From Bacteroidota bacterium (GTDB taxonomy: Bacteria; Bacteroidota; Bacteroidia; Cytophagales; Cyclobacteriaceae), in contig JAFDYU010000002.1 in assembly GCA_018267285.1 (NCBI GenBank), positions 186,001-250,000 of the forward strand: a stretch of 64,000 nt of DNA, given 5' to 3'. Under the pieces are notes generated by a model, which saw only the letters and a program-made list of their open reading frames with translations, had not been told where the DNA came from and did not search any database. The position numbers and the translations under genes were made by a program. The first letter of the stretch is position 1. The number at the start of each line of letters is the position of its first letter. This document shows, in pieces, positions 14,874 through 15,261 of this stretch.

Positions 14874-14986
14874 TAGTCGATTTATAGAGAAGCGCTGAGA
14901 GAACAGGCTCAAAGACGCGCTAGCAACCTTAAAAAGGTGCTAAGGCCTGCCCCGAAGAAGGTCTTTGGGGAACGATAAACCGATTA
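14874..14986 (+). ncRNA. SAM-I-type riboswitch
   Basis: The aptamer shows a closing P1 helix (14874-14884 with 14976-14986, one mismatch), the conserved GAGAGA stretch after the asymmetric internal loop, a P2 stem (CAGGC with GCCTG), the hallmark GCAACC...GGTGCTAA around a short P3, and a P4 hairpin (CCCCGAAGA 14950-14958 with TCTTTGGGG 14962-14970). These are features of the SAM-I clan, which senses S-adenosylmethionine. Some positions differ from the common consensus (GAGAGA for GAGGGA, AAAGA for GAUGA), so it may be a SAM-I/IV variant. The downstream genes make homocysteine, which fits feedback by SAM. Confidence 0.85.
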
Positions 14987-14991
14987 GTACA

Positions 14992-15129
14992 ATGAAAAAT
15001 TCAATGCTCAACAAAATCGAAGGTCTCTACCTCAACTCTGATTCCCTTTTTAAGTTTATCACTCCCATTTGCTGCAATACTCGAATGTGTTGTGCCGCGT
15101 GCGCATGCATTTGTTGTATTTGTTGTTGA
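14992..15129 (+). CDS. Cys-rich leader peptide (45 aa), putative cysteine sensor
   Basis: An ATG 5 nt after the riboswitch P1 helix opens a 45-codon ORF. The first 26 residues are unremarkable. The last 19 contain 10 Cys (positions 27, 28, 33, 34, 37, 39, 41, 42, 44, 45), and the ORF ends Cys-Cys-stop. Its position between a SAM aptamer and OAH sulfhydrylase, and a Cys run that would stall ribosomes when Cys-tRNA is low, mark it as a regulatory leader like classical attenuation peptides. In-frame ATGs at 15004 and 15085 are alternative starts; all keep the Cys run. A metal-binding microprotein is the alternative reading. Confidence 0.65.
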   Translation: MKNSMLNKIEGLYLNSDSLFKFITPICCNTRMCCAACACICCICC

Positions 15130-15157
15130 TTGATAGCGCAGCGCGTCTCAACAACAA
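15096..15157 (+). promoter_or_regulatory. Mutually exclusive stems over the Cys codons (attenuator-like)
   Basis: Stem A pairs CGCGTGCGC (15096-15104, inside the Cys run) with GCGCAGCGCG (15136-15145), nine pairs with one bulged G. Stem B pairs TTGTTGTTGA (15120-15129, the last codons and stop) with TCAACAACAA (15148-15157), ten pairs. The arms interleave, so only one stem can form without a pseudoknot. Neither is followed by a U-run, so control of translation or a Rho-type mechanism is more likely than an intrinsic terminator. Confidence 0.5.
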
Positions 15158-15261
15158 CTAACCTAAGGTCTACCCGGTGACAAGTTTGGCTACGGTTATG
15201 TGTCAATAAAAAATCCAAAACATAAAAAGATAAAAAAACAAACATCAAAATAGTTAAAGCC

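Follow-up and report, generated by a model that had tools for sequence, protein, structure and literature searches.

The window, by which we mean the whole 64,000-nt stretch of Bacteroidota DNA analysed here, carries a metY-metX-hom methionine operon preceded by a leader that holds a SAM-I (S-box) riboswitch aptamer and a short upstream open reading frame (uORF) ending in a run of Cys codons (Table 1). The Rfam model RF00162 is matched from model position 1 to 108 of 108 and above its gathering score of 44.4 bits; by sequence and structure the element is of the SAM-I class, and it is predicted to bind SAM. The 3′ strand of its P1 closing helix ends 10 nt upstream of the uORF ATG. A second in-frame start for the uORF, TTG at 14965, lies within the aptamer; uORF starts were counted as ATG only, and GTG and TTG starts were given no weight. 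The uORF peptide is MKNSMLNKIEGLYLNSDSLFKFITPICCNTRMCCAACACICCICC and its C-terminal end reads CCNTRMCCAACACICCICC-stop. The sequence-only reading of this DNA had claimed a SAM-I-type aptamer, a 45-codon ORF with ten Cys within its last 19 residues and a Cys-Cys-stop end, and metY-metX-hom downstream. These parts are borne out, the first by the RF00162 match with its 10-nt gap to the ATG, the second by the ORF list and the third by profile searches, in which metY and hom score above their cut-offs and metX below both of its own. One further RF00162 match in the window's genome precedes metH. Upstream of the operon, positions 11359–13113 encode a TPR protein with a histidine-kinase ATPase domain.

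Table 1 Features of the leader and operon in the window
Feature	Position	Strand	Evidence or remark
SAM-I (S-box) riboswitch aptamer, RF00162	14879-14981	+	67.9 bits, E 1.1e-13, full-length match
Leader uORF	14992-15129	+	45 codons plus TGA, from ORF list; ATG 14992, stop 15127-15129
Cys (plus Met) codon run	15070-15126	+	10 Cys in 19 codons, up to stop
Proposed helix H1, 5′ strand (last Cys codons and first stop base)	15121-15127	+	alignment A1
Anti-run AACAACA, proposed H1 3′ strand	15150-15156	+	alignment A1
Hairpin H2, with internal loop and loop with GUGAC; clade-specific	15157-15201	+	covariation
metY, O-acetylhomoserine sulfhydrylase	15262-16584	+	TIGR01326 659.5 bits, above cut-off
metX-like, homoserine O-acetyltransferase	16608-17651	+	TIGR01392 346.6 (cut-off 500), PRK00175 325.5 (cut-off 331), both below
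hom, homoserine dehydrogenase	17691-18917	+	PRK06349 327.4 bits, above cut-off

Relatives of the locus were collected by a scan with the window's MetY, from which the best 80 of 580 were taken with their flanks (L062–L141); their record titles name Cytophagales, Sphingobacteriales, Chitinophagales, Flavobacteriales or genera of these orders. Of the 80 genomes, 79 were scanned with RF00162 (L129 was left out) and the matches were mapped to the metY loci, which placed an aptamer no more than 1,000 nt ahead of metY in 73 of these best 80, or 74 loci with the window. Our strict definition of a Cys-run uORF called for an ATG within 25 nt of the aptamer end and at least four Cys in the last 20 residues. 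Such an ORF is present at 57 of the 74 metY aptamer loci and in a fraction of 0.0009 (0.09%) of 2,220 dinucleotide-preserving shuffles; with at least five Cys, the figures are 45 of 74 loci and none of the 2,220 shuffles. The run is thus kept in relatives, the check that the sequence-only reading had named.

The 17 remaining loci from this best-scoring set are of several kinds. Nine are Algoriphagus-type, with a short ORF of 0–2 Cys (L088, L099, L101, L106, L110, L114, L115, L132 and L137) and a shorter leader of 132–212 nt between aptamer and metY; one has three Cys (L107); two hold a Cys-run ORF that starts 62 and 43 nt from the aptamer (L086 and L102), four hold one whose start lies beyond the 25-nt limit (L087, L103, L113 and L136), and L108 is without one. 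Seven of the 80 relatives are without a near aptamer, and since a Cys-rich ORF is still present at four of them (L089, L092, L098 and L111), the Cys module can stand alone. A family-wide set built from the best-scoring aptamers gave strict-definition uORFs at 9 of 15 metY loci, comprising all eight in the window's genus (window included) and one of the seven elsewhere in the family (L013); the other six have three Cys (L011 and L015) or 0–2 (L016, L018, L019 and L032). The run is missing at Algoriphagus-type loci and, outside the genus, at most metY loci of the family set, so the Cys sensor can be dispensed with. The Cys-run leader is therefore real and general in Bacteroidota, yet the run has been lost in several groups.

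Codon changes were compared in 38 uORF pairs of 50–99% peptide identity; the pairs share members and are related, not independent. Cys codons in the last 12 positions were identical in 163 cases, synonymous in 30 and nonsynonymous in 28, against 525, 165 and 452 for body codons, so that the synonymous share of changes in these related pairs is 30/58 for Cys and 165/617 for the body. Because only one in nine single-base changes to a Cys codon is synonymous, 30/58 indicates selection for Cys itself. The comparison points to a Cys run near the stop that is selected as codons, with a peptide body that is not conserved. Composition adds a second sulfur amino acid. The last 14 residues of the 57 strict-definition uORFs are 40.2% Cys and 10.2% Met, compared with 2.3% and 1.4% before them. 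We also assembled 85 distinct peptides from metY and other targets, 52 from the window's clade and 33 from beyond it. After Cys itself, Met is the residue most often seen in their runs (9.6% in the run, 1.5% in the body) and occurs within the last 12 residues of 71 of the 85 (41/52 in the window's clade and 30/33 beyond). We therefore read the run as a sulfur amino-acid run of Cys plus Met.

The aptamer and the uORF start lie close together. The first ATG falls 0–11 nt past the aptamer at 66 of the 74 metY loci (relatives again being the best 80 of 580), and in the genus set it falls within 11 nt at 32/35 metY loci, at 10/10 loci of a second class with YceI or ATP-grasp genes described below, and at 0/33 metH loci, where starts extrapolated from the alignments lie about 29–45 nt from the aptamer. 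Even the Algoriphagus-type loci without a run hold an ATG at 9 nt (8/9) or 6 nt from the aptamer. A Shine-Dalgarno-like motif was found in none of 80 distinct Cys-run leaders; their start context is A-rich, and the ATG is followed by A in 75 of the 80. A-rich starts serve Bacteroidota genes that lack Shine-Dalgarno motifs, and the uORF would on this reading be translated from such a context. The 3′ strand of P1, of AUAUAAA type, occupies about −9 to −20 relative to the uORF start. Since the ATG is close to the aptamer and the A-rich 3′ strand of P1 lies in the initiation region, SAM probably gates uORF translation, with SAM binding blocking initiation, and the sensors would not simply stand in tandem. 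The earlier proposal of a SAM aptamer with a Cys-codon ORF as a second sulfur sensor hence stands in part: the run is conserved across Bacteroidota as the body diverges, but the arrangement appears to be more than a tandem and the run holds Met as well as Cys.

The module is largely particular to metY. Strict-definition uORFs were found at 0/52 control aptamers before metH (both control sets pooled), 0/17 before metB/metZ-like genes less than 60% identical to MetY, 0/2 hom-first aptamers and 1/4 metX-first aptamers (L216, whose first gene is metX and not metY); among further genus aptamers (80 of the 82 left over), the metY class has them at 31/35. A pattern search also turned up a Cys-run uORF with a CCCMCCCC end after an aptamer-like core and before a MetZ-like sulfhydrylase gene (L277). 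Exclusiveness for metY is consequently not perfect, as the MetZ-like L277 and the metX-first L216 carry the run too. Genes that would make Cys were compared as well: at 60 genus loci with CBS-like, cysK-like or PAPS reductase genes, no uORF with at least five Cys in its last 12 residues was found, and a laxer cut (ATG, four Cys in the last 20) gave one ORF each at four of the same 60 loci, with three lying beyond the gene start and one (L315) some 550 nt ahead of that start.

A second target class came from ten further genus aptamers, eleven with L057, that have the core GGCAACUUU instead of GCAACC and are followed by YceI-like, RimK-like ATP-grasp or SusC-like genes; the Pfam labels derive from the copies at L268, and other loci were assigned by likeness. 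The uORFs of this YceI/ATP-grasp class hold at least three Cys in 11/11 and at least four in 7/11. At L268 (G201:C6:6000-25000) three SAM aptamers lie close together. A cystathionine lyase/synthase-like (metB-like) gene with its own aptamer stands there alongside two Sulf_transp genes; one Cys-run uORF precedes a RimK-like ATP-grasp operon, and another precedes genes for YceI, an M19 dipeptidase, a redoxin, DsbD_N, a di-haem peroxidase and a TonB-type receptor, the last recognized by eye. Judged by gene names, the L268 island and the YceI/ATP-grasp operons are putative sulfur-scavenging systems.

To describe the region downstream of the run, we took 90 distinct Cys-run leaders and kept the 38 in which GTGAC lies within 110 nt of the stop; removal of three odd leaders and addition of one near-duplicate left 36, from which alignments A1 (35 rows) and A2 (33 rows) were made. 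A hairpin, H2, is supported by covariation. In 33 related sequences 92.7% of its cells are paired, and 49 cells show both-side changes, where shuffles gave 13.3 and slid controls no more than 12. The GUGAC of its loop is invariant by construction, because rows were picked by the letters GTGAC; the pairing is not. A model of H2, R1, found a single site in each genome that it matched, namely 31 of 49 in the genus and, across the family, 11 of 148 genomes from 5 of 84 genera; all 31 genus matches lie just downstream of metY-type aptamers, and most of them had entered the model. H2 copies also occur at L071, L241 and others, and within the genus set only in metY-type leaders. A search of the window and five relatives gave no Rfam match for H2, and its identity with a known RNA was dropped. 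H2 could bind a protein or a ligand.

Between the stop and H2 lies an anti-run, CRRCAACA, that is able to pair with the last Cys codons in a helix H1. Among 35 related sequences 87.3% of H1 cells are paired and a wobble column holds CG 16 times, UG 8, UA 6 and others 5; both-side covariation is seen in one of the seven pairs. Duplex energies of the run with its downstream region gave mean z values of −1.28 at 17 loci with the element and −0.69 at 40 others (body controls, −0.51 and −0.31), not clearly better than shuffled sequences and not singling out H1. A general pairing of the run with downstream sequence was accordingly set aside, least of all being indicated outside the element clade, and in other clades the region downstream of the run differs. 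Because these energies do not single H1 out, we hold it as likely in the window's clade only. Folding models predict that H1 is kept with a ribosome at the first Cys and lost with one at the stop: run–downstream pairs in the window number 7.8 without a ribosome, 7.8 with it stalled and 0.09 with it at the stop, and expected H1 pairs over 14 loci of the element clade are 7.8, 8.5 and 3.3, respectively. As H1 would form both when the uORF is untranslated and under Cys starvation, it cannot alone encode the logic proposed next.

The aptamer, the uORF, selection on the Cys codons, Met enrichment, spacing and H2 are parts read from the sequences themselves, and from them we infer uORF translation, gating by SAM, a direction in which starvation means on, and a level of control. 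We favour, as the probable though far from certain reading, a two-stage switch in which SAM gates the uORF and a shortage of Cys- or Met-tRNA then holds up the ribosome so that the operon is switched on, possibly by way of Rho. The first stage follows the geometry. With SAM plentiful, the aptamer would close P1, whose A-rich 3′ strand would sit in the initiation region, leaving the uORF untranslated and the operon off. The second stage follows the codon content. With SAM low, the uORF would be translated; a shortage of Cys-tRNA, and probably also of Met-tRNA, would halt the ribosome within the Cys/Met run, shortly ahead of the stop, and RNA polymerase would continue into metY-metX-hom. Otherwise transcription would end prematurely, possibly in a Rho-dependent manner. 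Weighing against this reading are the dispensable and not wholly exclusive run, the 60 Cys-making loci that do not carry it, the behaviour of H1 in the models and the duplex energies. A wider proposition, which we hold to be about evenly balanced, is that the riboswitch regulates the translation of an attenuator ORF rather than a gene. It would thereby detect the coincidence of low SAM with low Cys/Met; such detectors would be common across Bacteroidota, could move between operons that fix sulfide and ones that putatively scavenge sulfur, and in the window's clade would be coupled to a covarying hairpin not described before.

The direction of the switch bears on how these bacteria divide sulfur. 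In the window's genome, cysKM finds its best match in a protein of 456 residues whose top score is with cystathionine beta-synthase, at 501.6 bits just below the cut-off of 510.25, and this CBS-like protein might instead be a cysteine synthase. The cysKM cut-off is passed in 2 of 26 genus genomes, and four genus genomes (G196, G199, G213 and G215) hold a further cysKM-like protein below it. Because the best cysKM match is CBS-like and two of 26 genomes pass the cut-off, MetY homocysteine may feed Cys too; MetY may then, to judge by gene names, fix most of the sulfide that goes into either Met or Cys, and turning metY on at low Cys would make sense. These same observations weaken the competition logic of the sequence-only reading and make doubtful its claim that MetY competes with cysteine synthesis. 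They also bear on a switch of opposite sign, in which a stall at the Cys run would turn metY off and save scarce sulfide for cysteine synthesis. MetY does consume sulfide, the CBS-like protein misses the CBS cut-off and might be using sulfide to make Cys, and since the modelled ribosome at the first Cys leaves H1 in place and the one at the stop breaks it, reaching the stop could mean on. We nevertheless consider the opposite sign unlikely, because homocysteine is probably a route to Cys given the CBS-like match and the 2/26 genomes, and because the module also stands ahead of scavenging-like operons, which should be on in starvation.

The level of control was approached through the folding models and a terminator search. 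Over 51 loci the metY initiation region is predicted to be unpaired at 0.62 when no ribosome is present, 0.65 when the ribosome stalls at the first Cys and 0.64 when it has reached the stop, and the difference between stall and stop exceeds 0.1 at 3 of the 51 loci in this purely thermodynamic model. Sequestration of the metY start that depends on ribosome position is thus not predicted at these loci. The model thus speaks against translational attenuation, in which a stall would open the metY start. Such control would use the same codon content and has a precedent in the leaderless polycysteine sORF attenuators of mycobacteria (Canestrari et al. 2020, as described in the excerpts available of PMC9031893 and PMC13236596); the metY start is predicted to be accessible to nearly the same degree at every ribosome position, and we give translational attenuation a low probability. 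Terminator-like hairpins were found in 6 of 52 leaders compared with 3.5% of shuffles, so an intrinsic terminator after the leader ORF is not conserved, and the sole terminator-like site called in the window lies within the uORF. Given that no conserved terminator was found and that metY accessibility is unchanged in the folding models, transcription control is favoured over sequestration of the metY start, and Rho-type termination or another transcript-level step possibly remains as the means of control.

Two further readings would take the uORF out of regulation. An aptamer that alone controls metY through an unseen platform, with the uORF as a relic, accords with the aptamer loci that have no Cys run, nine of Algoriphagus type and four with 0–2 Cys outside the genus, yet is very improbable in view of the selection on the Cys codons, the conserved initiation region and the lack of a conserved terminator among the leaders. 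Least probable of all is a functional Cys-rich micro-peptide (metal- or thiol-binding, or a precursor peptide), for although runs of 4–6 Cys could bind metal and a RimK-like ATP-grasp gene follows some copies, the body lacks conservation (even between related pairs, 452 of its 1,142 codons are nonsynonymous), the length varies from 27 to 55 codons, and the ORF is bound to P1 by its start and to metY-type loci by its occurrence.

Compared with known systems, the two-stage switch that we favour combines two known kinds of sensor in a new way, its novelty being judged against the open-licence literature. Like other SAM-I riboswitches, the aptamer scores above the gathering threshold and stands ahead of methionine genes, but here the nearest downstream start is that of a leader ORF and not of a structural gene, and no conserved intrinsic terminator was found in the leader. 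The trp and his attenuators of Escherichia coli combine a regulatory codon run, pairing of the run with downstream sequence, and a terminator hairpin with a U-tract. The present leader shares the codon run and possibly the run–downstream pairing; it differs in that it has no conserved terminator hairpin with a U-tract and in that the leader ORF start abuts an aptamer helix. The mgtA and mgtCBR leaders of Salmonella join an sORF with another sensor. They resemble ours in placing an sORF and another signal in one leader RNA, whereas the leader described here puts a known class of metabolite aptamer in series with a run of amino-acid codons. Cys-run leader peptides have been predicted in Actinobacteria, where the available portion of PMC1262725 reports no conserved terminator and suggests Rho, as might hold here. 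These and the mycobacterial leaders are, as far as the excerpted sources go, likewise short ORFs with Cys codons near the stop and ahead of sulfur genes; ours lies in another phylum, begins about 8 nt after a SAM-I aptamer, is rich in Met within the run and targets a sulfide-fixing methionine operon. The 103-nt aptamer upstream of the ATG would argue against a leaderless start such as the mycobacterial sORFs have. The SAM-II metA leader of Sinorhizobium, in the part of PMC9373788 available, also has a SAM riboswitch sited at an upstream AUG as well as at the gene, but AUG1 and AUG2 share one frame, no amino-acid codon run is described in that part and the SAM class is another.

In our search of the open-licence literature we met no account of a SAM riboswitch combined with a Cys-run ORF in Bacteroidota, nor of two of the features reported here, Met within the run and P1 placed in the uORF start region. 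Leader-peptide attenuation in this phylum met with only brief mentions in that literature: the excerpts available give clues to it upstream of amino-acid operons in Flavobacterium psychrophilum (PMC9723704) and mention sORFs that resemble leaders within long 5′ UTRs of Bacteroides thetaiotaomicron (PMC7366714). If true, the two-stage switch would connect a riboswitch in series with an amino-acid attenuator within a single leader, and would do so in several Bacteroidota orders. It would offer a ready reporter system for transcription and translation control in Bacteroidota leaders and for Rho or other transcript ending, and a handle on how sulfur is shared out among SAM, Met and Cys in cells whose homocysteine may lead to both amino acids.

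Pattern searches gave a view of Cys-run sORFs at large. Two patterns yielded 4 and 45 matches in the window's genome, of which 45 of the 49 were inspected (34 as loci and 11 as stretches), the four TGG-ended ones being left out. Three ORFs at or above threshold were found among the 45 besides the metY uORF; two of them, at L149 and L142, each overlap with a longer ORF that is read in a different frame. The third, on the complement of 63–227 at L152, has 54 codons with several Cys near its end and no aptamer link there. Across 291 genomes of the order, the pattern ATG-Cys4-TRR gave 26 matches, 12 with a true stop, and an aptamer-like core lies upstream in four of these 12, before metY, an osmC-like gene (two) and a MetZ-like gene. 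Five of the metY relatives (L066, L067, L070, L077 and L085) have an additional gene between leader and metY, which from its start, read by eye, we take to be OsmC-family-like; with this gene in between, the leader would drive a longer operon.
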